Assembly (NCBI RefSeq): GCF_001719615.1
Contig: NZ_MDVX01000009.1
Span: forward strand, 62,001 to 126,000
From: Neptunicoccus sediminis
GTDB taxonomy: Bacteria; Pseudomonadota; Alphaproteobacteria; Rhodobacterales; Rhodobacteraceae
Reading direction: 5' to 3'
Length of the DNA stretch: 64,000 nt
In this document: positions 31,341-46,871 of the stretch, one piece after another
Layout: each line of letters begins with the position of its first letter
Numbering within the stretch: the first letter of the stretch is position 1
The notes under the pieces: generated by a model
What the model was told of the DNA's origin: nothing
Database searches by the model: none
Seen by the model: the letters and a program-made list of their open reading frames with translations, nothing else
Made by a program: the position numbers and the translations under genes

Positions 31341-32318
31341 ATGACACCCGCAATGAACGGCGCGCATCCATATCGCTCCACCCTGATCGTTCTGGCGATT
31401 TTCTTGGGGTGCGGTGTGCTGGCCTTTGCCACCGCCTCCGGAGAGGACATCTGGCACCAGATTACCCTCTTGTCCCTGACGCAAATCGGAATCCTCTTGG
31501 CCCTGTCGCTGGTCAATTACACCTTCCGCGCCTTTCGCTGGTTCCTGTACGGTCGCGCACTCGGGCTGGACCTTGGGCTTTTACAGGTGTTGCGGCATTA
31601 TCTGGGCGGCTTTGCCCTGACCATAACGCCGGGACGACTGGGGGAACTGGTGCGGGTGCGCTGGATCAACCGTGAAACCGGCGCCAGTGTGGAACGCACC
31701 GCGCCTTTGGTACTGGTAGATCGCGCGGCTGATCTCGCCTCCTCCGGCCTGCTGCTGGCGGCTGCGATGCTGGTTATGACCGGCGGTATCAACGGCGGCA
31801 TCCCTGTTGCCATTATCGCAATCCTCGCCGCTATTATCGCCACGCGCCCTGCCCTGTTCCGCTGGTGCGTTACCATGCTGTTCAAGCTGATTGGACGCAA
31901 GCCACGTCTGTTCGCCCGCGCCCGCCGCGCGGCGCTTTCGCTGAGGCCGTTTTCCCAACCCGCCATTGCGCTGCCCGCCTTCGCGCTGGGCTTTCTGGGC
32001 TGGTTCGCAGAAGGTTACGCCTTTTACCTGCTGCTGGACTGGATGGGCGCGGGCCTGCCGGTCTGGACCTGTGTCGGTATCTTTGTCTTTGCCATGATGA
32101 CCGGAGGCGCCACAGGGTTGCCCGGCGGCATAGGCGGTGCCGAAGCCGCGATGCTTGCACTGTTGTCCTTGCAAGGGGTTCCGCTGGAAATCGCCCTGCC
32201 CGCCACTGCCATTATCCGCATCACCACACTCTGGTTTGCCATCGGGCTGGGTGTACTGATCTTCCCGATAGCCGAAACCGCTGCCGCACGGAGGCCACAT
32301 GCGCTGGAAAACCGCTGA
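31341..32318 (+). CDS. Lysylphosphatidylglycerol synthase TM-like (flippase-like) membrane protein
   Basis: Polytopic membrane protein, 325 aa, of the LPG synthase transmembrane/UPF0104 family (flippase-like domain without the catalytic aminoacyl transferase domain). Typical parts: NYTFRAFRWFLYGRAL in helix 2 region, TPGRLGELVRVRWINRETG, VLVDRAADLAS, and the glycine-rich TGGATGLPGGIGGAEAAML near the C terminus. The ATG at 31341 follows a weak GGCAGAG site. Its end overlaps the DprE1-like gene by 20 nt, so it belongs to the arabinofuranose-donor cluster and could move the polyprenyl-linked sugar across the membrane; that role is inference. Confidence 0.82.
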   Translation: MTPAMNGAHPYRSTLIVLAIFLGCGVLAFATASGEDIWHQITLLSLTQIGILLALSLVNYTFRAFRWFLYGRALGLDLGLLQVLRHYLGGFALTITPGRLGELVRVRWINRETGASVERTAPLVLVDRAADLASSGLLLAAAMLVMTGGINGGIPVAIIAILAAIIATRPALFRWCVTMLFKLIGRKPRLFARARRAALSLRPFSQPAIALPAFALGFLGWFAEGYAFYLLLDWMGAGLPVWTCVGIFVFAMMTGGATGLPGGIGGAEAAMLALLSLQGVPLEIALPATAIIRITTLWFAIGLGVLIFPIAETAAARRPHALENR

Positions 32319-33621
32319 ACTGACCGGCTGGGGCCGTGTTTTATCTGGGAAAGCCGAACTCGCCCGCCCTGAGAAACCCGCTGCCCTGTCAGTAATATTC
32401 ACCGACACGCCCGCCCCTGCCATCGGTGCGCAACGCTCCTACGGGGATGCGGCGGTGAACAGCGACGGGCGCGCCATTGATATGACGCGGCTGGACCGCT
32501 TCATCGGTTTTGACGCAGACACCGGCATTCTGCACGCCGAAGCGGGCTGTTCCATTACCGATATGCTCGACACATTTGCCCCAAAAGGCTGGATGCCTGC
32601 GGTGATGCCGGGAACCGGATTTGCCACGCTCGGCGGCTGTATCGCACATGATGTCCACGGCAAGAACCACCATAAGGCCGGCACCTTTGGCCAGCATGTT
32701 CTGGAAATCGAACTGGCAGGCGCGGACGGCAAGACCACAACCGTGACCTCCCAAAGCGATCCGGCCCTGTTCAAAGCGACAATCGGCGGGCTGGGCCAAA
32801 CGGGTGCGATCTTGTCGGCCAAAATCCAGATGATCCCCTGCTCGTCCCGACTGATACAAGTGGACGAACGCCGCGCGGCAAATCTGGCAGAGTTCATGGA
32901 GATGCTCAAATCCTCTACCGCGACCTATTGCGTGGGCTGGATTGATGGCACCGCAAATGGTCAGAACCTTGGACGGGGCATTATGGAAGAAGCAGAATTG
33001 ACCAGCTCCAACATGGCCCCGAAGCTGCGCAAACCGCGCAAGGTACCGTTCAATGCCCCGCCTTTCGCACTGTCCCCGCCAACGGTTCGGCTGTTCAACC
33101 GCATGTATTTCAACCGCATCCCGAAACAGGGGCGCGGCGTGTTGCGCAGCCTGAAGGATTTTTTCTTCCCGCTTGATAAAATCCACGACTGGAACAAGCT
33201 TTATGGCAAGCGCGGCTTCCACCAGTTCCAATGCGTCCTGCCCGATGAGACCGCCGAACGCACCCTGCGCGATATGCTGCGATTGATTGCGGATGCGGGA
33301 CTTGCCTCGCCACTTGCCGTGCTGAAACGCACGGGTCCGGGACGGGCTGGCTCCCTCTCCTTTCCGATGGAAGGTTTCACGCTGGCGCTGGACTTCCCCA
33401 ACAGCGAAAAATCCCGTGCGCTGGTGGCCCAGTTAAACACACTGGCCGCCGAAGCCGGAGGCCGCATTTATTTCGCCAAAGACAGTCTGGCCACCGCGGC
33501 GCAGGCCCGTCTGATGTATCCCGAGCTGTCGGAGTGGCAGAAAACCGTCGAGGCAGCCGATCCGGAAGGCGCCTTCAAAACCGATCTTATCCGCCGCCTG
33601 AAACTGAGGGACCCCGCATGA
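32299..33621 (+). CDS. DprE1-like FAD-binding oxidoreductase
   Basis: Flavoprotein of 440 aa of the VAO family, resembling DprE1, the decaprenylphosphoryl-beta-D-ribose 2'-oxidase. The FAD-binding PCMH domain shows QRSYGDAAVNSDGRAIDMTRLDRF near residues 46-70 and the motif MPGTGFATLGGCIAHDVHGKNHH, both close to DprE1. The C-terminal substrate domain carries FFFPLDKIHDWNKLYGKRGFHQFQCVLP-like text (in parts) also seen in that group. It overlaps the flippase-like gene by 20 nt and the SDR gene by 4 nt (ATGA), so the oxidase and reductase steps are translationally coupled. The lipid carrier is unknown. Confidence 0.87.
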   Translation: MRWKTAELTGWGRVLSGKAELARPEKPAALSVIFTDTPAPAIGAQRSYGDAAVNSDGRAIDMTRLDRFIGFDADTGILHAEAGCSITDMLDTFAPKGWMPAVMPGTGFATLGGCIAHDVHGKNHHKAGTFGQHVLEIELAGADGKTTTVTSQSDPALFKATIGGLGQTGAILSAKIQMIPCSSRLIQVDERRAANLAEFMEMLKSSTATYCVGWIDGTANGQNLGRGIMEEAELTSSNMAPKLRKPRKVPFNAPPFALSPPTVRLFNRMYFNRIPKQGRGVLRSLKDFFFPLDKIHDWNKLYGKRGFHQFQCVLPDETAERTLRDMLRLIADAGLASPLAVLKRTGPGRAGSLSFPMEGFTLALDFPNSEKSRALVAQLNTLAAEAGGRIYFAKDSLATAAQARLMYPELSEWQKTVEAADPEGAFKTDLIRRLKLRDPA

Positions 33622-34355
33622 GCCAGACTTGGATAATACTTGGCGCTGGTTCCGCTATGGGCCGCGCGTTCGCCCGCAAAGCGGCCATTGAAGGGGCGCA
33701 TCTGGTTCTTGCCGCACGGGATCAGGATGATCTTGACCGGACCGCTACGGATTGTCTCGCAAGGGGGGCAGCTTCGGCGGCGGCTGTGCTATTTGACGTG
33801 CGCAACCCCGAAAGCTTCGCGCCGATCTATGACGCCGCCAAAGCTAATGACGGCATCATTAACGCCGCTGTTTTCGTTGGTTCGATGGCGCCGCAGGGGG
33901 ATGTAGACGCAGACCCGAATACGGGTGATCTGACCATTCAGGACAGCTTTACCGGCCCCGTGAACTTCCTGCACGGACTGGCCCCGATCATGGAGGAGCG
34001 GAAGGGCGGCACGGTTCTGGGGATCGGGTCGGTCGCGGGGGATCGCGGCCGGATCGGGAATTACACCTACGGCGCGGCCAAGGCCGGTTTTCACACCTAT
34101 TTGTCTGGCCTGCGCAACCGTCTGAACCGCAGCGGCGGACATGTTGTCACCGTGAAGCCGGGGTTTGTGGACACGGCAATGACTTGGGGAATAGAGGGCA
34201 TGTTCCTTGTGGCCAGCCCCGACCAGATCGCGCAGGATCTGTGGACCGCCCATGAAAAGCGTAAAAATACGCTCTACACGCCATTCTTCTGGCGCTACAT
34301 CATGGCGATTATCAAATCCATCCCCGAGCCGATTTTCAAGAAACTATCGGTCTGA
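33618..34355 (+). CDS. DprE2-like short-chain dehydrogenase
   Basis: Short-chain dehydrogenase/reductase, 245 aa. The nucleotide motif is GAGSAMGRAFARKA at residues 9-22 (classical SDR GxxxGxG pattern) and the active site is YTYGAAKAGF (Tyr-x3-Lys), preceded by a serine in GSVAG. In gene context it corresponds to DprE2, which reduces the 2-keto intermediate made by DprE1 to the arabino epimer. The start at 33618 overlaps the DprE1-like stop (ATGA); no upstream extension is justified. Convergent with the HAD-UbiA gene, 13 nt between stops. Confidence 0.85.
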   Translation: MSQTWIILGAGSAMGRAFARKAAIEGAHLVLAARDQDDLDRTATDCLARGAASAAAVLFDVRNPESFAPIYDAAKANDGIINAAVFVGSMAPQGDVDADPNTGDLTIQDSFTGPVNFLHGLAPIMEERKGGTVLGIGSVAGDRGRIGNYTYGAAKAGFHTYLSGLRNRLNRSGGHVVTVKPGFVDTAMTWGIEGMFLVASPDQIAQDLWTAHEKRKNTLYTPFFWRYIMAIIKSIPEPIFKKLSV

Positions 34356-34368
34356 AGCCGCCCGAAGC

Positions 34369-35790
34369 TCAGGCGATTTCGCCAGCGGCGTAGAACAGGA
34401 TCAACACCGTCACCGCGATGATTGCGATACCGGATTTATCGCGCATGGCAAAAACAATCGGGTCGTAATCCTGTTTGCCCTGCCAACCCAGCAGCACCAT
34501 ACGGATCTGCCACAGCGCAAGCGGGATAATCGCTAGGCGCAGCATCCAGATATCCTGATAGAGCGTCGCCGCTGTGCCGCTGAACGTGTACATTAGGAAC
34601 ACCAGCAGCGAAAAAAATACCCCAAGGCCCGCCACATTCACCAGATCCTCGCGGTCGGATTTGCAATAGCCCCGTCCGGGCACCTTGCCATCCGATTTGG
34701 CAAGGGTCAGTTCCGTCAGCCGCTTGACACAGCCAAGCGCAAGGAAGGTCGGAAAGATAAAGCCCACCAGCCAGCCCGAGGCCGTCACCTGCGCGGCAAG
34801 CCCGCCAGCAATCACCCGCAGGGTATAAAGGGCAGCAAGGGTCGCAATATCCACCCAGCGCATTTTCTTCAGCTTCAGGGAATAGGACAGGGACAACAGC
34901 ATATAAAGCGCGATCACCCCCAAGAGCGCCCAGCCAATGATGAACCCCACCCCAAGCGCGAACACCCCGAGCGCAAAGCTCATCAACATGGCATCGGGAA
35001 TCCGAGCATTGCCCGAAGCCAGCGGGCGGAACTGCTTTTTAGGGTGCTGTCGGTCTGCCTCCAGATCCAGCAGATCGTTGACGATATAGATGGACGAAGC
35101 CGCAGCCGAGAATGCCGCAATCGCCAGTATCACCCGCATGATCGACATGGGATCAAGGGAATGGGCGGCGATCAGCGGCAGGAACAACAGCGCATTCTTG
35201 ACCCATTGATGGGGCCGCAACCCCATAGCGAGCGAGCGGCGGGACCATGATTTTTTAACCTGCACCACTTCGACGCCATCCGCCTTTAACTGGCGCACAA
35301 CGGATGGGTGACGCCCCACGACGATCGCCTCTCCGGCAGATTTCCAGACCTTGAAGTCGAGCTTTTGATCCCCTGCATAGGCGTATTGCCCTTCTCCGAA
35401 GCGGGCATTCAAAGCGGCGGCCTTGGCGTCCCCCTTCAGGTTCACCTCTCCGTCAGAGCCGATGTGCGTCCCCTCAACCCCGTGGTGGTCCGCCAGTCTC
35501 TGAACCAAAGACGTGTCGCTGGCCGAAGCAAAGATCACTTCCCGCCCGTCAGCGCGGGCCTCTTCCATATAGGCCCGAATGTCGGGATTGACTGGCAACA
35601 ACTCGACGTTCACATCTGCAAGCTCGGTAATCTCCCGTTTCAGACGGGCGCGGTCCTTAAAGTGGCGAAAGACGGTTTTGATGGTTTTCATCGGCTGTTT
35701 GCCCAAGGCAAGCCAAAACCCCTCAAACAGCATATCGGTTTTCAGAAACGTCCCGTCTATATCAACGGCTAGCGGTCTTTTGTTGGTCAT
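34369..35790 (-). CDS. HAD phosphatase domain fused to UbiA prenyltransferase (polyprenyl-P phosphoribosyltransferase-like)
   Basis: Two-domain protein, 473 aa. The N-terminal part (1 to about 185) is a HAD hydrolase: DIDGT with Asp10/Asp12, ASASDTS as motif II, and AGDQKLDFKVW as motif IV. The C-terminal part, about nine membrane helices, is a UbiA prenyltransferase with RPHQWVKNALLFLP and NDLLDLEADRQHPKKQFRPLASG, like the mycobacterial decaprenylphosphate phosphoribosyltransferase (Rv3806c) group. A single protein could thus attach phosphoribose from PRPP to a polyprenyl phosphate and remove the 5-phosphate. Located opposite dprE1/dprE2-like genes, it completes the pathway to polyprenyl-P-arabinofuranose. 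Confidence 0.85.
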   Translation of the reverse strand: MTNKRPLAVDIDGTFLKTDMLFEGFWLALGKQPMKTIKTVFRHFKDRARLKREITELADVNVELLPVNPDIRAYMEEARADGREVIFASASDTSLVQRLADHHGVEGTHIGSDGEVNLKGDAKAAALNARFGEGQYAYAGDQKLDFKVWKSAGEAIVVGRHPSVVRQLKADGVEVVQVKKSWSRRSLAMGLRPHQWVKNALLFLPLIAAHSLDPMSIMRVILAIAAFSAAASSIYIVNDLLDLEADRQHPKKQFRPLASGNARIPDAMLMSFALGVFALGVGFIIGWALLGVIALYMLLSLSYSLKLKKMRWVDIATLAALYTLRVIAGGLAAQVTASGWLVGFIFPTFLALGCVKRLTELTLAKSDGKVPGRGYCKSDREDLVNVAGLGVFFSLLVFLMYTFSGTAATLYQDIWMLRLAIIPLALWQIRMVLLGWQGKQDYDPIVFAMRDKSGIAIIAVTVLILFYAAGEIA

Positions 35791-36647
35791 TTACTGGCTC
35801 TTGTTTTGAAGACACATCCGTCCGTGACGTATTTTGGCGGAGTCATACACAGACTGCGGGCGACTTGCCATGCCGCGACCACTTTGGGCACATAGGCACG
35901 GGTTTCGGGATAGGGCGGCACGCCGAGATGTTTTTTCACGGCATTCTCTCCCGCGTTATATCCGGCAAGGGCAAGCAGCGGATCGCGGTTGAATTCATTT
36001 AACAGCCAGTCCAGATAAGCCGAACCACCCTTGATGTTCTGCGCCGGATCGGTGCTGTCAGTCACGTTGAACCGCGCTGCCGTATCAGGAATGAGCTGCA
36101 TCAGCCCCACAGCCCCTGCCCCGCTGACCGCATCCGCACGTCCGGCCGATTCCACACCAATCACTGCCAGAACGAAGGCGGGCGAGACATTCTTTCCTAA
36201 AGTCGCCAACAGAATACTGCCGCCGTATTTATCGGCCAGAGACTGCATATGCCCGATGTTGGGGGACAGACGCGCAGAATGGGCAGGATTTCTGCTAAGG
36301 CTTTGCAGGGCTTTTTCCAGCCGCCCGGAGGCCGCTGCGGTCATCAAAGGGGAATTGTCATCCCAAAACCAGTCTTGCAAATCGGTCGGCTTGACCGTGG
36401 CCACTGTTGCTTCGGGCTTATCCTGTGGCGGTTTGGTCTTCTGATTTTCCATCTTCTCGCGATGAAGACGTTTGTAATAATCTTCCTCCGGCGTGATCTG
36501 CACATTGATGCGCTTGCCGGCGGCCTTGCCGGGGACGCCCACCTTCTTGAACGTGATGCCTTGTGCGCTTACTGTCGGGGCGGCTGCTCCGGCAAGACTG
36601 ATCGCTCCGGCCAAACACGCCGCTTTGAATGCGGGAAAACCTGTCAC
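35787..36647 (-). CDS. Lytic transglycosylase (SLT domain)
   Basis: Periplasmic lytic transglycosylase, 286 aa. The GTG start at 36647 gives a fitting signal peptide (FKAACLAGAISLAGAAAPTVSA, cut before QG); a longer frame upstream to 36836 has no conserved sequence and would cover the divergent promoter region. The SLT catalytic glutamate lies in VIGVESAGRADAVSG, followed by AVGLMQLIPDTAARF and LAGYNAGENAV, as in the Slt/MltC type. It cleaves peptidoglycan and, next to the Tad pilus locus, may open the wall for pilus assembly. Overlaps the HAD-UbiA gene by 4 nt. Start codon is the least certain part. Confidence 0.85.
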   Translation of the reverse strand: MTGFPAFKAACLAGAISLAGAAAPTVSAQGITFKKVGVPGKAAGKRINVQITPEEDYYKRLHREKMENQKTKPPQDKPEATVATVKPTDLQDWFWDDNSPLMTAAASGRLEKALQSLSRNPAHSARLSPNIGHMQSLADKYGGSILLATLGKNVSPAFVLAVIGVESAGRADAVSGAGAVGLMQLIPDTAARFNVTDSTDPAQNIKGGSAYLDWLLNEFNRDPLLALAGYNAGENAVKKHLGVPPYPETRAYVPKVVAAWQVARSLCMTPPKYVTDGCVFKTRASK

Positions 36648-37002
36648 TGCTCTGCTCTTTTGATTTTGTTTTCCAAGGAATCGCAAAAAAGCGGCCGCAA
36701 AGCTAGGAGATTGTGTGTTTGAACTGTGGCTTTTTTGCCAAAACTCCCCATACACCCTAACGGAATCCATCGGGACCGAAAATAATTTCACAAGTAAAGT
36801 ATCGAAAACTAAGGGATTTTGGCGTTTCTCTGACAAAAAGTTAATTTCCTAGAATTTCCAAGTTTATGCGCCAAACTGTGGTCACATTTCCCAGTATAAA
36901 TAGCTTCATAGACACGACGGGCCGAGCATTGACGAGAACGCTCTCTCCCAGTTAGCCGGGTCTAAAGAGAAAAACTTAAATGTGACCTTGGAGGGTTCAA
37001 AA
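36648..37002. promoter_or_regulatory. Divergent intergenic region upstream of flp
   Basis: A 355-nt AT-rich stretch between the transglycosylase and pilin genes. I see a -10-like TATAAA at 36895-36900 without a convincing -35, a small dyad AGTTT-N7-AAACT at 36861-36877, and GGAGG at 36990-36994 as ribosome binding site for flp. No coding sequence is evident. The transcript leader of flp would be about 95 nt if TATAAA is used. Confidence 0.4.
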
Positions 37003-37176
37003 ATGAAACTGTTTAAATTTGCAAAAGACGAAGACGGCGCTGTAACTGTAGACTGGGTTGTTCTGACAGCTGCACTGGTTCTGGTTGGTGGCGTTGTTGT
37101 GACAGCGATCCGCGGCGGCATGGAAGATCTGGCCTCCGACATCAACACCCAGCTGTCCGCGACTTCCGTATCCTAA
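37003..37176 (+). CDS. flp: Flp/Fap type IVb pilin
   Basis: Major Flp pilin, 57 aa. A short basic leader ends at Gly12 (KDEDG); prepilin peptidase should cut before Ala13, leaving AVTVDWVVLTAALVLVGG as the hydrophobic helix. The residue five positions after cleavage is Asp17 rather than the usual Glu. The mature protein is about 45 aa. The ATG at 37003 has GGAGG 9 nt upstream; an earlier in-frame ATG lies before that site and is unlikely. Two hairpins follow the gene, which fits strong separate expression of the pilin. Confidence 0.93.
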   Translation: MKLFKFAKDEDGAVTVDWVVLTAALVLVGGVVVTAIRGGMEDLASDINTQLSATSVS

Positions 37177-37445: not shown

Positions 37446-38285
37446 GTGAAGAACATGCGTATGGTTTTTGCATTAGTGCTAATTATGGGTGTCGCCATCG
37501 CAGGTGGTGCCGTCTACATGGCGATGGAGCGTTTCAATCAATATGAAGCCGCTCTCGCACAGAAAAACACGCCGAAAGTCCAGAAAATCGACCTGAAGAC
37601 AGTCTATGTCGCGGCGAACACTCTGGAATACGGCAAACCCTTGACCGAAGAAGATGTCAAAGCGGTAGAATTTCCGCTGGCGGCGATTCCGGAAAATTCC
37701 TTTTCCGAACTGGAAGCCCTGATCGGTAGCAAAGATGACGACGAATTTCGCACTGTGCTGCGGACTATGGAACCTGGCGAGGCTATTCTTGCCTCTAAAG
37801 TAACCCGCTTGGGCGAAGATGCCGGCGTGTCCTCCCGTCTGGAAAAAGGTATGCGTGCCTTTGCGATCCGTGTTGACGTGGCCTCCGGTGTCTCCGGCTT
37901 CCTGCGCCCCGGTGACAAAGTAGACGTGTATTGGACCGGCAAAACGGAAAATGACACCGTTACCAAACTGATCCTGAACGGACTGGAGCTGATCGCGATT
38001 GACCAGCAAGCCGATGCGACCCGCAACCGCCCGACTGTTGCGCGGACAGTGACCGTCGCGGCCGATGTAAAGACCATTGCGGCGCTGGTTCAGGCCCAAT
38101 CCACAGGCAACCTGCTGCTGTCCCTGCGCGGCATCGACGATGAAACAACCTCCGAACAGATCGAGATCACCAAAGACGATCTGCTAGGTCGCGAGCAGAT
38201 AAAACTGGTCGAAAAAGAGGTCTGCACCATCAAAACCCGTCGGGGTGCGGAAGTGATCGAAATCCCGATCCCCTGCTCCAACTGA
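37446..38285 (+). CDS. cpaB: Tad pilus assembly protein CpaB (RcpC)
   Basis: Tad pilus periplasmic protein CpaB/RcpC, 279 aa. One N-terminal membrane anchor (MVFALVLIMGVAIAGGAVYMAM) precedes a SAF domain (about residues 50-115: VYVAANTLEYGKPLTEEDV, then GEAILASKVT) and the RcpC/CpaB domain with RLEKGMRAFAIRVDVASGVSGFLRPGDKVDVYW. It is thought to act at the periplasmic/outer-membrane part of the pilus with the secretin. A GTG at 37446 and an ATG at 37455 are both possible starts; neither has a clearly better ribosome binding site. Confidence 0.93.
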   Translation: MKNMRMVFALVLIMGVAIAGGAVYMAMERFNQYEAALAQKNTPKVQKIDLKTVYVAANTLEYGKPLTEEDVKAVEFPLAAIPENSFSELEALIGSKDDDEFRTVLRTMEPGEAILASKVTRLGEDAGVSSRLEKGMRAFAIRVDVASGVSGFLRPGDKVDVYWTGKTENDTVTKLILNGLELIAIDQQADATRNRPTVARTVTVAADVKTIAALVQAQSTGNLLLSLRGIDDETTSEQIEITKDDLLGREQIKLVEKEVCTIKTRRGAEVIEIPIPCSN

Positions 38286-38314
38286 CCCCGCGAACACTCG
38301 ATTGCACCGAACTG

Positions 38315-38338
38315 ACGGGCGCTTCGGCGCCCGTTTTG
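38315..38338 (+). terminator. UUCG-loop hairpin between cpaB and cpaC
   Basis: Perfect 8-bp stem ACGGGCGC / GCGCCCGT around a TTCG tetraloop, followed by TTTGC. It lies 30 nt after the cpaB stop; cpaC starts 170 nt further on, leaving an AT-rich stretch (38395-38460) that could carry a promoter. Confidence 0.7.
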
Positions 38339-38508
38339 CTGCAAAATCAGGGACAATACTGTGACACTGTTGCCCCGTTTCAACATACACTGCCCCTTAC
38401 AAAATATTGAATCTTGATAATAAAACCCAATTGGAGCAGTGTGCTCGATAATAATCGGGCAGCAAAGACCCGGACCAAAGCAGTAGTGGTTCAGAGAGGC
38501 AGGATCAC

Positions 38509-39918
38509 ATGAATATTAAAAACCTGTTAAAAGCGGGCCTGTTGGGCATATGCGCAACCGGCATTATCGCACCACCGGCAGCAGCGCAGAATGTGCTGAA
38601 AATTATGCGTGGCGCGACCACTAGCAGTATTAAAGTTTCGGTTAACCGTGCCATTGTCATGGAATCCGACCAGCCCTTCGCAGAACTATCAGTGGCCAAT
38701 CCGGGCATCGCGGACATCGCGACGCTGTCGGATAGGACCATTTATGTTCTGGGAAAATCACCTGGCCGCACCACGCTGACACTTCTGGCAGCGGACGGCA
38801 AGCTGATCACCAACGTAGACGTCCATGTGTCCCCCGATCTTGCGGAATTCAAGGAACGCCTGCGCGAGATCCTCCCCCGCGAACCTATTGAAGTCCGCAC
38901 GGCCAATGACGGCATCGTGCTGTCGGGCCGCGTATCGGGTAAACAGAAACTGGCGCGTGCGCTGGATCTGGCGGAACGCTATGCGCCGGAACGTGTGACC
39001 AACCTGATGACGGTTGGCGGCTCCCAGCAGGTGATGCTGAAAGTGCGCTTTGCAGAAATGCAACGCAGTGTTGCAAAAAACCTGTCTGCCAGCATCGGCG
39101 TCGACATTACCGGCAACAGCCCCGTGGCCCAGATCGGCACCGGCTCCCTGCTCCAGACCCCGACAACAACCGGAGTTGGCGTGGCAACCACAGGACAACA
39201 GGGCGCCTTCTCTTTGGGGTTCTCTTCGGGTGATCTTGCGATCAACCTGATGCTGGAAGCTCTGGAAACCAAAGGTCTGGTCCGCACGCTTGCGGAACCG
39301 AACCTCGTGGCCATTTCCGGCAACGAAGCCAGCTTTCTTGCCGGGGGTGAGTTTCCCGTCCCTGTAGCGGACGGCGACGGTATCACAATTGAATATAAAC
39401 CCTTTGGTATTGAATTGAAATTCAAGCCCATCGTGGTAGACGGCGACCTGATCAACCTGACCATTGAAAGCGCGGTGTCCGAACTGGACCCGACGCAATC
39501 CATCACGGTCAGCGGCTCTGTCATTCCGGCGTTTTCCAAGCGTCAGGCGACCACCGTGGTTGAAATGCGTGACGGGCAAAGCATGTCGATTGCAGGTCTG
39601 TTGCAAGACAACTTCTCTGACGCGGCATCCCAAGTGCCCTGGCTCGGGGATGTGCCCATCCTTGGCGCCCTGTTCCGCAGTGCCAATTACGCCCGCGACC
39701 AGAGCGAACTGGTTGTGATCGTTACGCCACATCTTGTGACGCCGGTGAATGGCGACAGCCTCAGCCTGCCGACAGACCGTGTGAAAATCCCTAACGAGAG
39801 CGAATTGTTCCTCTTGGGGAATGTGACCGGAAATCGCAAAGGCAAAACCGTGAAACGCGCCACAGGAACAGTGTCTTCCCAAGACTTCACTGGTTCTTAC
39901 GGCTATGTGATGGAGTAA
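38509..39918 (+). CDS. cpaC: Tad pilus outer-membrane secretin CpaC (RcpA)
   Basis: Secretin of the Tad system, 469 aa, forming the outer-membrane pore for the pilus. A signal peptide (LLGICATGIIAPPAAA) is followed by an N-terminal pilus-assembly domain (about 40-110: SIKVSVNRAIVMESDQPFAEL, GKSPGRTTLTLL) and a BON-like piece, then the secretin domain ending with VPWLGDVPILGALFRS and ELVVIVTPHLV, both secretin hallmarks. It is followed 5 nt later by the OmpA-type lipoprotein gene, implying a common transcript. Confidence 0.95.
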   Translation: MNIKNLLKAGLLGICATGIIAPPAAAQNVLKIMRGATTSSIKVSVNRAIVMESDQPFAELSVANPGIADIATLSDRTIYVLGKSPGRTTLTLLAADGKLITNVDVHVSPDLAEFKERLREILPREPIEVRTANDGIVLSGRVSGKQKLARALDLAERYAPERVTNLMTVGGSQQVMLKVRFAEMQRSVAKNLSASIGVDITGNSPVAQIGTGSLLQTPTTTGVGVATTGQQGAFSLGFSSGDLAINLMLEALETKGLVRTLAEPNLVAISGNEASFLAGGEFPVPVADGDGITIEYKPFGIELKFKPIVVDGDLINLTIESAVSELDPTQSITVSGSVIPAFSKRQATTVVEMRDGQSMSIAGLLQDNFSDAASQVPWLGDVPILGALFRSANYARDQSELVVIVTPHLVTPVNGDSLSLPTDRVKIPNESELFLLGNVTGNRKGKTVKRATGTVSSQDFTGSYGYVME

Positions 39919-39923
39919 GGCAC

Positions 39924-40565
39924 ATGAAAACGGTATCAATCACCTCCTCCGCCGTTGTGGCGCTCCTGCTGGCCGGCTGTTCGGTTACTGACAATTCTTT
40001 CGCCTATATCGGGCCGGAAGCAGGGTCCGAGATCAACGACGCCAACCTTGGGGTTTCCACGGCACACAATGTTGCGGTGCTTTCGGGTGAACTGGGCACA
40101 ATGGCGGCCAACCTGACGCGCAAATTTGCAGCGGAAGCGCCGGCACAGATCAATTTCGCCTTTAATTCCGCAGCTTTGGACGCAACCGCCCAAAGCCAGC
40201 TGCGCCGTCAGGCCCAGTGGATCAAGGCACACCCCCAGATCGTATTCCGCGTTTATGGCCACACTGACAAGGTCGGCTCGGATGCTTTCAATCGCCGTCT
40301 TGGTAAACAACGTGCCGTGGCGGCTGTGAACTATCTGGTGAGTCAGGGCGTAGACCGGCGCAAGGTTCAGGCTGTTGCCTCCTTCGGGGAAACCCGTCCT
40401 GTTGTGCTGACCGAAGGCCCGAGCCGGGCTAACCGGCGCACAGTAACCGAAGTCTACGGTTTTGCCCGCAAGGGCCGTGCCTCTGATCTGGACGGAAAAT
40501 ACGCTAAATTTGTCTACGATCAGTATATCTCGACGACCTACACGACTGAAGACACTAAAGAATAA
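39924..40565 (+). CDS. OmpA-domain lipoprotein of the Tad locus
   Basis: Predicted lipoprotein, 213 aa, with lipobox LLAGC (about residues 14-18 to Cys18-19) and an OmpA-like peptidoglycan-binding domain in residues 70-175 (INFAFNSAALDATAQSQLRRQA, YGHTDKVGSDAFNRRLGKQRA, FGETRPVV...RANRRTV). It occupies the place of RcpB/CpaD in other Tad clusters and may anchor the secretin to the cell wall. ATG 5 nt after the cpaC stop with AAGG upstream. A stem-loop follows at 40582. Confidence 0.88.
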   Translation: MKTVSITSSAVVALLLAGCSVTDNSFAYIGPEAGSEINDANLGVSTAHNVAVLSGELGTMAANLTRKFAAEAPAQINFAFNSAALDATAQSQLRRQAQWIKAHPQIVFRVYGHTDKVGSDAFNRRLGKQRAVAAVNYLVSQGVDRRKVQAVASFGETRPVVLTEGPSRANRRTVTEVYGFARKGRASDLDGKYAKFVYDQYISTTYTTEDTKE

Positions 40566-40581
40566 CAGCTTTCAGCTTCCC

Positions 40582-40619
40582 TGATGCGGGCAGCGTTTTC
40601 ATTAAAATTGCCCGCATCA
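40582..40619 (+). terminator. Stem-loop between OmpA-type gene and tadZ
   Basis: Perfect 11-bp stem TGATGCGGGCA / TGCCCGCATCA with a 16-nt AT-rich loop, 16 nt after the stop at 40565. No strong T run follows, though the next bases are AT-rich. It could reduce read-through into tadZ. Confidence 0.6.
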
Positions 40620-40724
40620 AACAAAATATTACCACAATTTTAATATATTTCCGATGTGAAGAGTGGGCGCATTACGCGCTAAAAAACAAGCGGGGAAACT
40701 CCCGCATTTGGGTGGAACGAGGGT

Positions 40725-41957
40725 ATGAGCGCCGAAACAGAAAACAAGAACGCGGATAAAGTCATTGCCTGCGCCATCGCACGCGACATTGAAGCGTTCG
40801 ATCTTCTGATTGAAGATATGGAGACCGAATTCGACGAGAATTGGGGCGCTCTGACGTTTGAAGCTGCCGAAGCGGCTTTGAATTCGGAAATCGGCAAGGA
40901 TCTGAAACTTGTCACCGTTGCGGTGGACAAGGAGGATGAACAGGATCTGACACCTGTCGCCAACGCAATCCGTGCGGCCAGCGATCGCGGCATCAAGGTC
41001 ATCCTTGTCCCGAACGAACTGAACACCGTTGCGTTGCACCAGTTGATGCGCATGGGCTGCGATGACTTCGCGCCCTACCCGCTCCCCGAAGGGGCGTTGC
41101 ACGACGCGATTGAACGGATTTCCAACGTTCCGGTGCCCCCGCCAGCCGCGCCTGTCAGTGTCGCCATGCCACCTGCTGATACCACACGCAGTGGAATCGT
41201 TTTGCCGGTCTACGGGCTTGGCGGCGGTGTCGGAGCGACCACTTTCGCGGCCAATCTGGCCTGGGAGCTGCAGAAAATTAGCGAGAAAGAGAATAAAAAG
41301 GTTTGTATCCTCGATTTCGATTTCCAGTATGGCGCTGTGTCCACCTATCTTGACGTGCCCCGCTCTGAGGCGGTGTTCGAGTTTTTGTCCGATGCCGCTG
41401 CCACGGACGCAACAGGTCTGCAACAGGCCATGACGGCCTATAAAGACCGGCTCGACGTGCTGTCCTCCCCCATCGACGCGCTGCCACTGGAGTTTGTAGA
41501 ACCGGATGGCATCCAGAATATTTTGACGCTGGCAAAATCAAGCTATGACTTTGTTATCGTTGACGTTCCGCAAGCATTGGTAAGCTGGTCCGAAACCGTT
41601 TTGGAAGAGGCACAACTGTATTTTGGCGTGCTCGAACTCGACATGCGCTGCGCCCAGAACGCGCTGCGTTTCGTGCGCACGCTCAAAGCCGAAGATCTGC
41701 CGATTGAAAAGGTCCAGTTCGCCCTGAACCGCGCCCCGAAATTTACCGATATGTCTGGTAAACAACGGGTTAAACGGATGGCGGAAAGTCTGGAAATCGA
41801 ATTCCGCTACCACCTTCCCGACGGGGGCAAACCGGTATCAAATGCCGGAGATGAAGGCGTGCCGCTGGCAGAAATCGCCGCTAAAAATCCGCTTCGTAAG
41901 GAAATATTCAAGATCGCTAAGACACTATCCGAACTCGTAAAAGAAGACGCCCAGTAA
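40725..41957 (+). CDS. cpaE: Tad pilus localisation ATPase TadZ (CpaE)
   Basis: TadZ/CpaE protein, 410 aa: a receiver-like N-terminal domain (about 1-130) without the full set of phosphorylation residues, then a MinD/ParA-like ATPase domain. The P-loop is GLGGGVGATTFAANLAWEL, in which the usual GKT lysine is Ala, as is common in TadZ. LDFDFQYGAVSTYLD is the Walker A' part, and VIVDVPQALVSW replaces Walker B. TadZ marks the site of pilus assembly at the pole. It opens a run of closely spaced genes to the end of tadC. Confidence 0.93.
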   Translation: MSAETENKNADKVIACAIARDIEAFDLLIEDMETEFDENWGALTFEAAEAALNSEIGKDLKLVTVAVDKEDEQDLTPVANAIRAASDRGIKVILVPNELNTVALHQLMRMGCDDFAPYPLPEGALHDAIERISNVPVPPPAAPVSVAMPPADTTRSGIVLPVYGLGGGVGATTFAANLAWELQKISEKENKKVCILDFDFQYGAVSTYLDVPRSEAVFEFLSDAAATDATGLQQAMTAYKDRLDVLSSPIDALPLEFVEPDGIQNILTLAKSSYDFVIVDVPQALVSWSETVLEEAQLYFGVLELDMRCAQNALRFVRTLKAEDLPIEKVQFALNRAPKFTDMSGKQRVKRMAESLEIEFRYHLPDGGKPVSNAGDEGVPLAEIAAKNPLRKEIFKIAKTLSELVKEDAQ

Positions 41958-41970
41958 CGGGGAGTACAAG

Positions 41971-43431
41971 ATGTTCAAGAGATACAAAAAGCCGGACGCA
42001 AAACCGGCACCGACAGACGCCGGCGAAGCCCCCGAAATGGTTGCAGCGCCTCAAGCGGCTGCGCCCGAGCCTGCGGTCGTTAAAGCGCCTCCCAAGGCTG
42101 TGCCGGCTGCAAAGGCAAAGCCGGACAATCTCAGCCGTGAGGAACGTCGCGCCCAGAAACTGATGGATGTGCGTCTGGATATGCACACCCGGCTGCTCGA
42201 AAACCTGAACCTCGGCGCCATCGAAAGCGCCTCTGAAGCAGACCTGCGCCGCGAAATCGCGGCAATCTGTTCGGACGGGCTGCAGGAAATGGGGATGGTG
42301 CTGTCAAAGGAAGAACGCACGAACCTCAACAACGAGATGTACGATGAGGTCACGGGGCTCGGCCCGCTGGAACCGTTGCTCAAAGACGACGACATCGCGG
42401 ATATTCTGATCAACGGTCCCAAGCAGATTTTTATCGAGAAAAAAGGGAAACTCTCCCTGTCACGGGTGGTTTTCCGCGACGACAAACATCTGCTGCGGGT
42501 GATCGACAAGATCGTTTCGGCAGTGGGGCGGCGTGTTGATGAATCAAACCCTTATGTGGATGCGCGGCTACAGGACGGCTCTCGCTTTAACGCTATGGTG
42601 CCCCCGATCGCCATCGACGGGGCGCTGGTGTCCATCCGGAAATTCAAAAAAGACAAACTCGGCATCGACGATCTGGTTAAATTCGGGGCTTTCACCGATG
42701 AAATGGCCGCTTATTTGCAGGCAGCCGTGGCCTGCCGCCTGAACATCATTGTGTCGGGCGGTACGGGGTCGGGTAAAACCACCACGCTGAACGCTTTGTC
42801 GAGCTTTATCGCCAATGACGAACGTGTCGCCACGATTGAGGATACGGCGGAACTTCAGCTGCAACAACAACACCTTGCACGGATGGAGACCCGCCCGCCG
42901 AACGTGGAAGGCAAAGGTGAAGTTGACGCCCGCGCCTGTCTGAAAAACGCCCTGCGGATGCGCCCCGACCGGATCATCGTGGGGGAAACCCGCGGCGATG
43001 AGGTGATCGACATGCTTCAGGCGATGAATACCGGCCACGACGGGTCAATGACGACGATCCACGCCAACTCGGCACGGGATGCGGTTGCCCGTCTGGAAAA
43101 CATGATCGCCATGACCGGCGTTGAAATGCCCCTGCGCGCCATGCGCTCGCAGATCGCGTCGGCTGTGAACCTGATTGTTCAGGCCAAACGATTGCAGGAC
43201 GGTTCCCGCCGGATGGTGTCCATCACCGAAGTCGCCGGCATGGAAGGCGATGTGATCTCGTTGCAGGAAATTTTCAGATACGAAATCGAAGGCACCGGAA
43301 AAGACGGCAAGCTGATCGGTGATTTTACCCCGACCGGATTGCGCTCGCTCTATTCGGACCGTTTCAAACAGTGGGGCTACGATCTGCCCTCCAGCATCTA
43401 TTCTCCGCGCCGCCAGACCGCCGCGCAATAA
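41971..43431 (+). CDS. cpaF: Tad pilus assembly ATPase TadA (CpaF)
   Basis: Secretion ATPase of the VirB11/GspE superfamily, 486 aa, powering Flp pilus extension and retraction. After a Pro/Ala-rich N terminus comes the N-terminal domain ([22 protein letters not shown]) and the ATPase core with Walker [16 protein letters not shown], the Asp box IEDTAELQL, Walker [15 protein letters not shown] and the His box [14 protein letters not shown]. 13 nt after tadZ, 12 nt before tadB. Confidence 0.96.
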
Positions 43432-43443
43432 GGAACCGTTCCC

Positions 43444-44406
43444 ATGGGTACACAGGCTGTTATCTATCTTCTGATCTTCGTCGGCGTTGTTCTGATCGTC
43501 GAGGGTATCTACCTTGTGACCTTTGGCAAATCCATCAAGCTGAACAGCCGCGTGAACCGTCGTCTGGCGATGATGGAAACCGGCAAGGCGCAGGAAGAAG
43601 TGTTCGAGGCGCTTCGCAAGGAGCGGGATCAGCATCTTTCCGGCCTGAAACTGCCGATTATGTCCATTCTCAGCCATAAGGCGCAGCAGGCCAACATCGC
43701 TTTTTCGCCGTCTGCTTTGATTATGGTGATGGTTTTTGTCGCCGCGCTCAGCTTTGCGGGTCTGACCTATTTCACTGCAACCGGTCTGGTTTTGCGCTGT
43801 ATTCTATCCGTTCTGATCGGTGGTGGCGGGGTATATTTCTGGCTTAGCGGCAAGGCGAAAAAGCGTATGGCCGCCTTTGAAGAGCAGCTTCCAGATGCGG
43901 TTGACCTGATCGTGCGCTCGCTGCGCGTGGGGCACCCTTTTTCCAATGCAATCAATATCGTAGCAAACGAAATGCCCGACCCGATCGGTTCCGAATTTGG
44001 CATGATCGTGGATGAAACCGCTTATGGCGCCGATGTGGCGACCGCGTTGAACAACATGGCAGAGCGTATTGACGTGCCCGACCTGCGCTTTTTGACTGTT
44101 GCCGTGGCAATTCAGGCCAAGGCCGGTGGTAATCTGGCAGAGGTTCTGGATGGGCTGTCCAAGGTGATCCGCTCCCGCTTCAAACTGTTCCGTCGTGTCA
44201 ATGCCATCACCGCCGAGGCAAAATGGTCCGGCATGTTTCTCTCGGGCTTTCCGCTTGCAGCGCTTGGCGGGGTCAATGTGATGAACCCGACCTATTATGA
44301 CGCCGTGAAACCGACCGAATATTACATGCCCGCCGCGATTGCCGTGTTTGTGATGCTTGCCATTAACGTTTTGGTCATGCGTCACATGGTAAATATTAAG
44401 GTATAG
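43444..44406 (+). CDS. tadB: Tad pilus membrane platform protein TadB
   Basis: Inner-membrane platform protein TadB, 320 aa, with a T2SF domain. Hydrophobic segments at the N terminus (VIYLLIFVGVVLIVEGIYLV), in the middle (two between about residues 90 and 135) and at the C terminus (AAIAVFVMLAINVLVM). The conserved F-domain part reads EEQLPDAVDLIVRSLRVGHPFSNAI (in parts) and GGNLAEVLDGLSKVIRSRFKL. It pairs with TadC to form the platform on which TadA acts. Confidence 0.94.
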   Translation: MGTQAVIYLLIFVGVVLIVEGIYLVTFGKSIKLNSRVNRRLAMMETGKAQEEVFEALRKERDQHLSGLKLPIMSILSHKAQQANIAFSPSALIMVMVFVAALSFAGLTYFTATGLVLRCILSVLIGGGGVYFWLSGKAKKRMAAFEEQLPDAVDLIVRSLRVGHPFSNAINIVANEMPDPIGSEFGMIVDETAYGADVATALNNMAERIDVPDLRFLTVAVAIQAKAGGNLAEVLDGLSKVIRSRFKLFRRVNAITAEAKWSGMFLSGFPLAALGGVNVMNPTYYDAVKPTEYYMPAAIAVFVMLAINVLVMRHMVNIKV

Positions 44407-44416
44407 GATTCGTCAG

Positions 44417-45400
44417 ATGCTTGAACAGTTCAACACATACCTTATAGAAATTCTCGGTCCGGCCGGCCCGTTCATCGCGATGGGCGTGCTTGGCATTTTC
44501 TGTATCGTCATGACGCTGCCTTTCCTGCTGACCAAGAAAGAAGACCCGTTCGACCGGCTGGCCGGATCGGCTGTGCGCAATCCCAGTCCGAAACGGGGTG
44601 CAGGCGACCAGCCCAAGCTGGAGCTGCGGGAAAAACAGAAAGGGCCGAATCTCGACAAATTCGCCGCCTATCTGGAACCTCAGGATCAACAGGAATTTTC
44701 CGACCGGCGTCTGAAACTTATCCAGGCCGGTTACAGAACCAAAGGCGCGGTGCGGACCTTTCACTTCCTGCAACTTGTGCTCGGGTTGGCGGGTCTGCTG
44801 CTCGGGACGATCTATACATTCCTGCTCACCGGTGGCACCTCTGATCTGAAATGGCTTGCGATCCAGACGCTCGGTCCCGGCTTTGTGGGATATTACGCCC
44901 CGATCTACTGGGTCGAAAAACGTCGCGCCACCCGTCAGGAGGAAATCCTGAACGGATTTCCCGACTCGCTCGACCTGATGCTGGTCTGTATTGAGGCTGG
45001 CCAATCCCTTGATCAGGCGGTGCAGCGTGTTGCCAAGGAAATCGCGCCTTCGGCCCCTGCCCTCTCGGAAGAGTTTACCATCGTGGCAAACGAAATGCGC
45101 GCCGGTAAGGAACGACCCGTTGTGCTGCGTGACATGGCAGAACGCTGTGACTGTCAGGACATTTCAGCCTTTGTGACCGTTATGATCCAGTCGGCCACCT
45201 TCGGGACCTCTCTTGGCGAAGCTTTACGGGTCTATGCCTCTGAAATGCGGGACAAACGTGTGACCCGCGCGGAAGAAAAGGCAAACAAGCTGCCCACGAA
45301 AATGACGCTCTGCACCATGATGTTCACGGTGCCCCCTCTTCTCGTAATTATGGTGGGACCTTCGGTCTTTGATATTTATGTTCACATGGTTCAAAAATAA
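44417..45400 (+). CDS. tadC: Tad pilus membrane platform protein TadC
   Basis: Second platform protein, 327 aa, T2SF domain. N-terminal membrane segment GPFIAMGVLGIFCIVMTLPFLL, two central helices (near residues 112-160), a cytoplasmic domain with LDLMLVCIEAGQSLDQAVQRVAKE and FGTSLGEALRVYASEMRDKR, and a final helix CTMMFTVPPLLVIMVGPSVF. It begins 10 nt after tadB and overlaps the following TPR gene by 23 nt. Confidence 0.94.
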   Translation: MLEQFNTYLIEILGPAGPFIAMGVLGIFCIVMTLPFLLTKKEDPFDRLAGSAVRNPSPKRGAGDQPKLELREKQKGPNLDKFAAYLEPQDQQEFSDRRLKLIQAGYRTKGAVRTFHFLQLVLGLAGLLLGTIYTFLLTGGTSDLKWLAIQTLGPGFVGYYAPIYWVEKRRATRQEEILNGFPDSLDLMLVCIEAGQSLDQAVQRVAKEIAPSAPALSEEFTIVANEMRAGKERPVVLRDMAERCDCQDISAFVTVMIQSATFGTSLGEALRVYASEMRDKRVTRAEEKANKLPTKMTLCTMMFTVPPLLVIMVGPSVFDIYVHMVQK

Positions 45401-45989
45401 TTCGGCCGCGCTGGCTGCAATCTTTGGCACAGCCACTCTTGGTGCCTGTTCCAGCGTGGGAACCGTAGATTCCCGCTCGCTGGCGGTGATCCACGAAGGG
45501 TTGAAGGCCCCGGCTGGTACAGAGAAGATTACCGAGGCTGTGGACGGGCTGACCGTCGGCCACCGATTGATGGCCTCAAAAGAGTACGAACTTGCGCTAA
45601 AAGCCTATACCCGTGCGGCCTCGGAAAAAGGGCTTAACGCCGATGTCCTTAGCGCCCTTGGCTCTGCCAATATGCATCTGGGCCGGTTGCACCACGCGAA
45701 TGAGCTTTTGCAACTCGCCGTTAAAAAAGACCCCGATTTTGTTCCGGCCTGGAATAATCTTGGCGTGGTTTTGATGTCCCAAGGCGAATATGCCGAAGCA
45801 AAGCGTGTCTTTCAGCTCGCATATGGGCTTGATAACGGCAGTTCCGAAGAAATTCGCAAGAATTTAACCAAAGTTATCGCAATTATGGATAACACGGAGT
45901 ATTCTTCTCCTAATACTAATAACGACTTCGAGTTGGTGAGGCGGGGTAACGGCAAATACCTGCTGCTTTCCACATCAAACTCGGGCTAA
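45378..45989 (+). CDS. tadD: TPR lipoprotein TadD
   Basis: Predicted lipoprotein, 203 aa, with tetratricopeptide repeats; equivalent of TadD, thought to act as a pilotin-like factor for Tad secretin assembly. The start at 45378 gives a signal ending in LGAC and overlaps tadC by 23 nt, suggesting coupling. TPR motifs cover about residues 55-165 (YELALKAYTRAASEKGLN, AWNNLGVVLMSQGEYAEAKRVF). A TTG three codons earlier is possible but gives no better signal. Confidence 0.88.
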   Translation: MFTWFKNNSAALAAIFGTATLGACSSVGTVDSRSLAVIHEGLKAPAGTEKITEAVDGLTVGHRLMASKEYELALKAYTRAASEKGLNADVLSALGSANMHLGRLHHANELLQLAVKKDPDFVPAWNNLGVVLMSQGEYAEAKRVFQLAYGLDNGSSEEIRKNLTKVIAIMDNTEYSSPNTNNDFELVRRGNGKYLLLSTSNSG

Positions 45990-46013
45990 AACGAGCAGTA
46001 CAGGAACAGACCC

Positions 46014-46871
46014 ATGGGCAATCCACTAATGGGCACACTCGCAATCGCCGGCTTGCTGGCTCTTGGGGCATGTGCAGACAATGGCGACGCATCAAAAGCT
46101 GCGGATCTTGATCCTACGAGCGTTGTAGATGCAACCGATCTTAACGACATTATGCTGACGGTCGCTGATCCGAACGAAGCCGTTGAATATTTCCGCAGTT
46201 CCCTGACCAAAGATCCTGACCGGACCGAGTTCCGCCGCGGCCTCGCCCAGTCCCTGATCCGCGCCAAACGCGCGGCAGAGGCCGTTCCCGTGTTTGAAAA
46301 ACTTGTGGAGTCCAAGGAAGGCACCGATCAGGACCGGATCGATTTTGCAGACGCCCTGATCCGCACCAATGACTGGAAAGGCGCCGAGGCCCAGTTAAAT
46401 CAGGTTCCCCCTACCGTTGAAACATACAAACGCTATCGTCTGGAAGCAATGATTGCGGACAGCCAGAAGAAATGGAAAAAAGCCGACAGTTTTTACGAAA
46501 TCGCAAGCGGACTGACCACGAAACCGTCCAATGTGATGAACAACTGGGGCTATTCCAAAATGGCCCGCGGCGATTACAAAGGCGCGGAAAAGCTGTTTGT
46601 TCAGGCGATTACCTATGATCGCAAACTGTTCACGGCGAAAAACAACCTGATGCTCGCCCGGGCTGCGCAGAAAAACTACAGCCTGCCCGTCGTCCCGATG
46701 AGCGAAACTGAAAAAGCCCAGATGCTCTACACCGCCGGCCTGTCCGCGGTAAAACAGGGCGATACCGACATCGGGCGCGGTCTTCTCGAAGACGCAATCG
46801 ACACCCATCCACGCCACTTTGAAGAGGCCGTCCGCAGTCTGGAAGCCCTGACGCGCACAATCAAAAGCTGA
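46014..46871 (+). CDS. Second TPR lipoprotein of the Tad locus
   Basis: Lipoprotein of 285 aa with lipobox LLALGAC near residues 14-20 and several TPR units (EAVEYFRSSLTKDPDRTEF, FRRGLAQSLIRAKRAAEAV, NNWGYSKMARGDYKGAEKLF). It is a second TadD-like protein, common in Rhodobacteraceae Tad loci as far as I recall. The stop overlaps the prepilin peptidase start by 1 nt (TGATG), so the two are coupled. Precise role not established. Confidence 0.87.
   Translation: MGNPLMGTLAIAGLLALGACADNGDASKAADLDPTSVVDATDLNDIMLTVADPNEAVEYFRSSLTKDPDRTEFRRGLAQSLIRAKRAAEAVPVFEKLVESKEGTDQDRIDFADALIRTNDWKGAEAQLNQVPPTVETYKRYRLEAMIADSQKKWKKADSFYEIASGLTTKPSNVMNNWGYSKMARGDYKGAEKLFVQAITYDRKLFTAKNNLMLARAAQKNYSLPVVPMSETEKAQMLYTAGLSAVKQGDTDIGRGLLEDAIDTHPRHFEEAVRSLEALTRTIKS

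Follow-up and report, generated by a model that had tools for sequence, protein, structure and literature searches.

The stretch analysed here, called the window, comprises 64,000 nucleotides of contig NZ_MDVX01000009.1 from Neptunicoccus sediminis (Rhodobacteraceae). It carries a group of four genes at positions 31341-35790, a Tad pilus locus next to them and, at the far end of the pilus operon, a gene for a membrane protein that resembles GT-C glycosyltransferases. An initial annotation had described the four genes as an adjacent set for a UbiA-type phosphoribosyltransferase fused to a HAD phosphatase, a DprE1-like oxidase, a short-chain dehydrogenase/reductase (SDR) and a flippase-like membrane protein; all four were present at that place, and their family matches agreed. 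The plus strand encodes a PF03706/TIGR00374 flippase-like membrane protein of 325 amino acids (aa; 31341..32318, ATG at 31341), a DprE1-type FAD oxidase of 440 aa (32299..33621) and a DprE2-type SDR of 245 aa (33618..34355). The overlaps given for these three genes were exact: 20 nt between the first two, and 4 nt between the DprE1-type and DprE2-type genes. The fourth gene (34369..35790, minus strand) is convergent to the others and encodes a protein of 473 aa, in which a HAD phosphatase is fused to a UbiA-type polyprenyl-phosphate phosphoribosyltransferase (HAD-UbiA). Its start overlaps the stop of a lytic transglycosylase gene by 4 nt.

When the proteins were compared with family profiles and with the sequences of solved structures, the nearest counterparts of the three enzymes were mycobacterial DprE1, DprE2 and DPPRS. 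The oxidase matched NF053785 with 388.9 bits (E 3.9e-116), the next NCBIfam family reaching 49.1 bits, and its best PDB match was mycobacterial DprE1 (254.6-254.9 bits, residues 6-436 aligned). It stays short of the curated cut-off of NF053785 (500 bits), which was reached in 0 of the 148 genomes of the order sample described below. The HGKNHH and AKDS stretches were kept; the residues HGKNHH and AKD are presumably important in DprE1. The SDR matched PRK07102 with 252.4 bits (cut-off 267) and the DprE2 model NF053786 with 147.4 bits (cut-off 250); its nearest solved protein was DprE2 (21gq_C, 83.5 bits), the next SDR scored 55.8, and the YxxxK motif was present. Because the oxidase and the SDR lie below the curated NCBI cut-offs, we named them DprE1-type and DprE2-type. 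HAD-UbiA matched PRK08238 with 496.9 bits, above the cut-off of 351, and three DPPRS models with 125.5-148.9 bits, under their cut-offs. Its best PDB match was DPPRS (8j8j, 98.5 bits), aligned over residues 188-428 with the stretch ND..D..ADR.HP.K.FRP kept. Taken alone, the HAD part was weak in Pfam (20.1 bits, cut-off 27); an N-terminal HAD nucleophile motif and a C-terminal UbiA motif of the NDxxD type were both found. The flippase-like protein, scanned from 31344, one codon after its start, exceeded the cut-offs of PF03706 (136.8 bits) and TIGR00374 (65.8 bits) and had no PDB match by sequence.

As judged by sequence comparison, the four genes very likely form the donor pathway for polyprenyl-phosphoryl-D-arabinofuranose (polyprenyl-P-D-Araf; Araf, arabinofuranose). 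The UbiA domain would move ribose-5-phosphate from phosphoribosyl pyrophosphate to polyprenyl phosphate, and the fused HAD domain would remove the 5-phosphate. The DprE1-type oxidase would then oxidise C2 of polyprenyl-P-ribofuranose, and the DprE2-type SDR would reduce it to give polyprenyl-P-D-Araf. Strong family evidence argues for this synthesis, while gene context suggests that the PF03706 protein flips the product to the periplasm. The proposed reaction order is that of the mycobacterial decaprenyl-P-arabinose pathway (Rv3806c, Rv3807c, DprE1, DprE2 and Rv3789; PMC11127046, drawn on in excerpt like all papers cited here except PMC8383342). In that pathway, however, the phosphatase is unfused and unrelated to the HAD domain, the transporter is of the SMR type instead of PF03706, and the acceptor is cell-wall arabinan. 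The lipid-linked sugar might also be a different pentose, either ribose or one in a keto or epimer form, that still serves pilus glycosylation, as the DprE1 and DprE2 scores below the curated cut-offs would allow and as in Citrobacter O2, where a different epimerase yields xylofuranose (PMC11127046). We consider this quite improbable, however, since the best PDB matches were DprE1 and DprE2 themselves and homologues of both are linked to Araf-containing glycans (PMC11127046). The initial annotation had the donor set feeding an undescribed arabinosylated surface product, a proposal supported by the sequence families, the motifs and the gene context.

In an order sample of 148 genomes, the DprE1 model (E < 1e-50) identified 55 places, the window's included. 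The other 54 were fetched and, after one stretch (L092, 24-26% identity to the window proteins) had been set aside, 53 loci were sorted into two types. Type A has the order UbiA-GtrA-DprE1-DprE2 (27 loci) and resembles the rhizobial noe genes. Type B has the order PF03706 gene-DprE1-DprE2 (26 loci, 27 counting the window), with a PF03706 match in 26 of the 27 (the exception is G086) and a convergent HAD-UbiA gene within the fetched stretch in 23. The motifs were well kept in type-B rows: HGKNHH in 43 of 47 and AKD in all 47 DprE1 sequences, the UbiA motif in 38 and the HAD motif in 31 of 39 HAD-UbiA sequences. The SDR and PF03706 families are broad, and a generic SDR, FAD oxidase, UbiA protein and membrane protein could in principle stand together by chance, with no joint pathway. 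Because the same order recurs in other genomes, including HAD-UbiA in those 23 loci, and because the set is present or absent together with the GT-C-like gene (see below), a chance neighbourhood is hardly credible.

The initial annotation had placed the oxidase with DprE1, and a phylogeny bore on this in part. In a quick tree of 59 oxidases, which included NoeH and no mycobacterial DprE1, the window oxidase and the other 26 of type B formed one clade (SH-aLRT 99), and NoeH grouped with type A outside it; placement apart from NoeH stands, and the relation to the mycobacterial enzyme lies beyond this tree. Adjacent to the type-B clade is a set from an Azospirillaceae plasmid, likewise with a PF03706 gene. 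In this set, on a plasmid of Indioceanicola profundi (L034:4868-12727), the UbiA, PF03706, DprE1 and DprE2 genes are consecutive; it is a second set of the PF03706 type, outside the family. Its PF03706 protein, encoded between UbiA and DprE1, is 39% identical to the window's flippase-like protein, and a GT87 gene lies near the set on the other strand.

The donor set of the window sits between CoA-transferase genes and the transglycosylase gene, the latter being beside the Flp pilin gene and the Tad operon. The pilin, which is the proposed acceptor, has 57 aa (37003..37176, plus strand) and was recognised by its Flp-like GAVTVDWVVLTA segment, 443 nt upstream of CpaB. The operon (37446..47368, plus strand) encodes CpaB, RcpA-like, OmpA-like, TadZ-like and CpaF-like proteins, TadB, TadC, two TPR proteins and an A24 prepilin peptidase, in an order that is kept in relatives. 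CpaB is above the TIGR03177 cut-off, and TadB, TadC, the TPR proteins and the A24 peptidase were assigned by Pfam; RcpA, OmpA, TadZ and CpaF were assigned from reading the sequence, without a family scan. Tail to tail with the last Tad gene, and overlapping it by 27 nt, lies the GT-C-like gene (47342..49006, minus strand; TTG start at 49006, GTG start at 48973 also possible), 11.5 kb from the donor set across the operon. It encodes a protein of 554 aa, with 10 hydrophobic segments and an invariant D49, that we propose as the Araf transferase.

The relationship of this protein to known transferases is distant. Among 49 aligned members of its family, the window protein included, five were matched by GT87 at E values no higher than 0.1, the best being 2.8e-5; four further models each matched a single member. 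A mycobacterial arabinosyltransferase belongs to GT87, which is one of the GT-C families. A PDB profile search with the family gave a single chance match (E 6.4). The family profile was then run on 46 open reading frames (ORFs) with multiple transmembrane segments; four came from L034 and the other 42, which include some UbiA proteins, from 30 type-A loci. It picked out the gene that immediately follows DprE2 both in G058 (E 2e-23) and on a Tateyamaria plasmid (E 7.6e-17), the next match being an ORF of the UbiA region (E 0.0054). The Tateyamaria gene was confirmed by hhalign (98.2% over 439 columns) and BLAST (4e-7), and in G034 a 22% match lies immediately behind DprE2. These matches indicate that relatives of the GT-C-like protein end other, type-A operons for lipid-P-Araf. 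Beyond the bacterial family, the protein is seldom found: 2 of 289 genomes of the class had it (E 1e-10), the window's own and G501. The latter, from another alphaproteobacterial family, has a distant homologue (L286) beside transposase-like and histidyl-tRNA-synthetase-like genes and no DprE1 at E 1e-30.

The GT-C-like protein and the type-B set occurred together. In the order sample, excluding weak GT-C-like matches in G034 and G058, the protein (E < 1e-50) was found in 28 and type-B DprE1 in 27 of the 148 genomes, both in 26. Type-B DprE1 alone was found in G121, and the GT-C-like protein accompanied a type-A set in G014 and G099 (2 of the other 121 genomes). In a family sample of 345 genomes from 344 genera (threshold E < 1e-20; weaker matches in G244, G254 and G058 dropped), there were 98 genomes with the GT-C-like protein, 87 with type-B DprE1 (in G206 and G403 the gene was partial or split at a contig end) and 37 with type A (the calls for G251 and G429 being less certain). 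Every one of the 87 type-B genomes had the GT-C-like protein, compared to 11 of the 258 others, and seven of these 11 have type A (G014, G243, G294, G308, G377, G399 and G408). Without correction for descent, the Fisher p value was 5.5e-70 for type B; for type A, tested among genomes lacking type B, it was 1.6e-4. Altogether, some DprE1 was present in 94 of the 98 carriers; the four with none at E 1e-30 are G164, G233, G334 and G367, and G164 has DprE2 and HAD-UbiA at a contig edge.

As the initial annotation had suggested, gene neighbourhoods were surveyed across the Rhodobacteraceae, and the donor set proved to be tied to the Tad locus and to the GT-C-like gene on its far side. Twenty stretches without the GT-C-like gene were viewed, including that of G121 and one second Tad system. 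In all 14 non-carriers with both genes in view, and likewise in G121, the prepilin peptidase gene lies directly beside an AAA-type gene and the insert site is empty. No donor-set gene was found at the Tad loci of non-carriers in the fetched stretches. There, scoB lies beside the transglycosylase gene in G087, G002, G109 and G083; in G131 and in the window's congeners G008 and G141 it was not found in the 3.5-4 kb beyond the transglycosylase gene. The GT-C-like gene stays at the Tad operon where the DprE genes lie elsewhere (G086, G145 and G105, the last two keeping HAD-UbiA at Tad) and in the type-A genomes G014, G099, G243 and G308. Among 51 carriers with both positions recorded, the GT-C-like gene and CpaB share a contig in 39, and in 37 of these they are within 15 kb. 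Likewise, among the best 80 of 388 matched stretches from relatives, 70 have a prepilin peptidase gene at most 1.5 kb from the GT-C-like gene. Of the ten without a close one, seven genomes were checked (three of them, judging by contig and position, apparently already in the samples), and all seven had CpaB and HAD-UbiA matches, the latter at 39% in G434 and in two pieces in G435. In one of the relatives, Rhodobacter capsulatus, HAD-UbiA lies about 2 kb from CpaB (L249) and the GT-C-like gene elsewhere; in strain DSM 1710 this gene (L249:10001-11542) is off Tad, with a DprE2-like match nearby.

Since the donor set is tied to the Tad locus and the GT-C-like gene, the acceptor is likely the Flp pilin. 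In the proposed last step, the GT-C-like protein would transfer Araf from the flipped donor to Ser/Thr residues of the pilin while this is held in the membrane, probably close to the C-terminus. Co-occurrence and synteny suggest this step, as does the sequence, whose evidence for a GT-C enzyme is weak. On the evidence of sequence and gene order, we therefore consider it likely that this locus serves to glycosylate the Tad (Flp, type IVc) pilus with D-arabinofuranose, and this bacterium and many of its relatives probably decorate their pili with arabinose. Two other readings of the donor set were dropped: that it acts alone, once the GT-C-like gene had been found, and that it is a defence system, as four proteins (the SDR not among them) had no PADLOC match.

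The pilin tails were compared using a C-terminal motif that was fixed beforehand from the first genomes (M1, and a looser version, M2) and tested on genomes outside this training set. M1 was present in 12 of 18 training carriers and 1 of 18 training non-carriers. Of the 37 test carriers, 17 had M1 and 19 had M2, against 0 of 20 test non-carriers for either version (Fisher 1.5e-4 and 5.6e-5). The 37 test carriers were 32 new genomes, the best of the CpaB matches listed, and five from the order sample; in three of the 40 carrier stretches fetched (G086, G051 and G268) no Flp was found. Over the last 12 residues, the Ser/Thr fraction was 0.314 in carriers and 0.219 in non-carriers (p 4e-5; 55 and 38 genomes), and the acidic fraction 0.068 and 0.151. 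The difference in pilin tails between carriers and non-carriers is a hint; we did not take the motif to prove a glycosylation signal, since its link does not survive the control for descent and the window's own tail does not match it.

A number of observations weigh against a Tad pilin as the acceptor, or against the link as a whole. The tail motif was missed by 20 of the 37 test carriers and by the window's own pilin, its link was not significant after descent control, and the Ser/Thr excess holds for the last 8 and 12 residues and is not significant for the last 20 and 30 (p 0.08 and 0.11). The GT-C-like protein of the window matched no Pfam or NCBIfam model. G233, G334 and G367 carry a GT-C-like protein with neither DprE1 nor HAD-UbiA found, G233 and G421 carry it without CpaB, and G121 has the donor set without it. 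Most other HAD-UbiA matches are longer and stronger than that of G121 (L073, L121; 44%), where the system is perhaps being lost. Descent was examined with a quick tree built from the CpaF, TadB and TadC sequences of 74 genomes (56 carriers), on which GT-C-like presence needs at least 8 changes. Independent pairs gave 3.8 for, 0 against and 3.2 undecided with type-B DprE1 (median p 0.125), and 5.2 for, 0 against and 1.8 undecided with any DprE1 (median p 0.0625). These pairs speak for the link, but the test is small, with too few pairs for a lower p, and it counted G164 as DprE-positive from DprE2 and UbiA only. Finally, the GT-C-like gene is 29-45 kb from CpaB in G049, G045, G417 and G334, and in G049, G045 and some relatives' loci it stands beside the AAA-type gene, away from Tad.

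This last arrangement, together with the failure of the tail motif under descent control, would also fit if polyprenyl-P-D-Araf were made and used by the GT-C-like protein on another periplasmic acceptor (a polysaccharide, a lipid or another protein), with the Tad site as an old and stable place of insertion. O antigen is often the acceptor in published systems (PMC11127046), and G055 (L087, L110), which has no CpaB match, keeps the GT-C-like gene together with DprE1 and the flippase-like gene. In G055, the short DprE2 match looks cut and runs into a Tad TPR gene, which looks like a deletion across the Tad locus; HAD-UbiA was not found in the fetched stretches. We regard another acceptor as unlikely, however, because CpaB was found in 95 of the 98 carriers of the family sample compared to 198 of the 247 non-carriers, because the GT-C-like gene keeps its place at Tad also in genomes whose DprE genes are of type A or away from that locus, and because two separate inserts flank one operon.

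Around the locus, the lytic transglycosylase (35787..36836, minus strand; SLT, PF01464, 91 bits) adjoins the Tad genes in carriers and non-carriers alike, and we therefore treat it as a neighbour and not as part of the system. Beyond the GT-C-like gene, the window encodes an AAA-type protein of 432 aa (49114-50412, plus strand; P-loop GPPGNGKSS, no Pfam match), whose gene is found beside the Tad locus with or without the GT-C-like gene.

The donor set had also been likened to the noeCHOP operon of Azorhizobium. It is not the same operon, and we rejected membership on the basis of the identities, the NoeP mismatch and the separate DprE1 group. The noe set (noeCNHOP, Nod factor arabinosylation; PMC2443382, PMC5080398) shares UbiA, DprE1 and DprE2 homologues at 37-42% identity: NoeH and NoeO are 42% and 40% identical to the window proteins, and NoeC matches only the UbiA half of HAD-UbiA. 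However, the noe set of the Rhizobium sp. IRBG74 plasmid has a GtrA protein where the window set has the PF03706 protein, and its acceptor is the Nod factor. No match to NoeP above 45 bits was found in window positions 22001-46000 (24 kb, ending before the GT-C-like gene), and the GT-C-like protein has no relationship to NoeP (hhalign 0.2%). The NoeN protein of Rhizobium sp. IRBG74 (L035:5579-6001) is annotated as GtrA family and has been proposed in print to be a phosphatase (PMC5080398); given this annotation, a flippase fits better. GtrA relatives occupy the NoeN slot in all 27 type-A loci.

Closer in plan is the three-component pentofuranose system of Citrobacter youngae (ORF12-15, GT136; Kelly et al. 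2024, PMC11127046), where ORF15 has the same HAD-UbiA order and which the authors set beside Araf systems carrying DprE1/E2 homologues. Shared features are a HAD domain fused before a UbiA-type synthase, a lipid-P-pentofuranose donor, and a separate flippase and GT-C enzyme, both of which are putative in the window. Citrobacter youngae, however, uses a MATE flippase and GT136 on O antigen, whereas the window has a transferase without a Pfam or NCBIfam model at a pilus locus and, given its PF03706 match, a flippase-like protein of another family than MATE. The synthase is encoded in the window as well, but the GT-C-like gene is not beside it, lying across the Tad operon. In Pseudomonas paraeruginosa, type IVa pilin is arabinosylated by TfpW, with reported protection from pilus phages (PMC12369383, PMC11841053). 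As proposed for the window, D-Araf donor genes there serve a type IV pilin with a GT-C arabinosyltransferase, the likeness being one of description; the TfpW donor genes lie in a genomic island, in contrast to their place beside a Tad/Flp operon in the window. By analogy with TfpW only, the pilus may be shielded from phages. For Tad pili, the Flp1 pilin of Aggregatibacter actinomycetemcomitans is reported to be glycosylated; the excerpts of PMC6182317 and PMC12307814 name neither the sugar nor such a gene set. Nor do the excerpts of these two papers or of PMC11127046, PMC12369383 and PMC11841053 show Araf on a Tad pilus; judging by titles or the beginnings of abstracts, nothing about Araf on Tad or Flp pili was found among the papers that the literature searches listed. 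The main text of PMC8383342, on Tad genes of Rhodobacterales, has no mention of glycosylation, arabinose, UbiA, prenyltransferase or oxidoreductase.

Three-component pentofuranose systems and TfpW acting on type IVa pilin were already known; in our best reading of the sequences, what would be new here is the Tad pilus as target, the transferase family and the flippase class. We lean, somewhat beyond an even balance, towards a dedicated Tad-pilus D-arabinofuranosylation that is common in the family and has a new GT-C family, a new (PF03706) class of flippase for lipid-P-pentofuranose and pilin tails that co-evolved, possibly under phage pressure. D-arabinofuranose is best known from mycobacterial walls; if this reading is true, it decorates the Tad pili of many Rhodobacterales. 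It would offer a function for a membrane-protein family whose window member matches no model, together with a candidate flippase class, and it predicts a pentose on the Flp pilin that would be measurable in culturable carriers such as Rhodobacter capsulatus. Presence and absence of the genes at one fixed locus provide a natural comparison with and without the system. Finally, a named sugar and a gene set would be given to Tad pilin glycosylation, as reported for Aggregatibacter Flp1 (PMC6182317).

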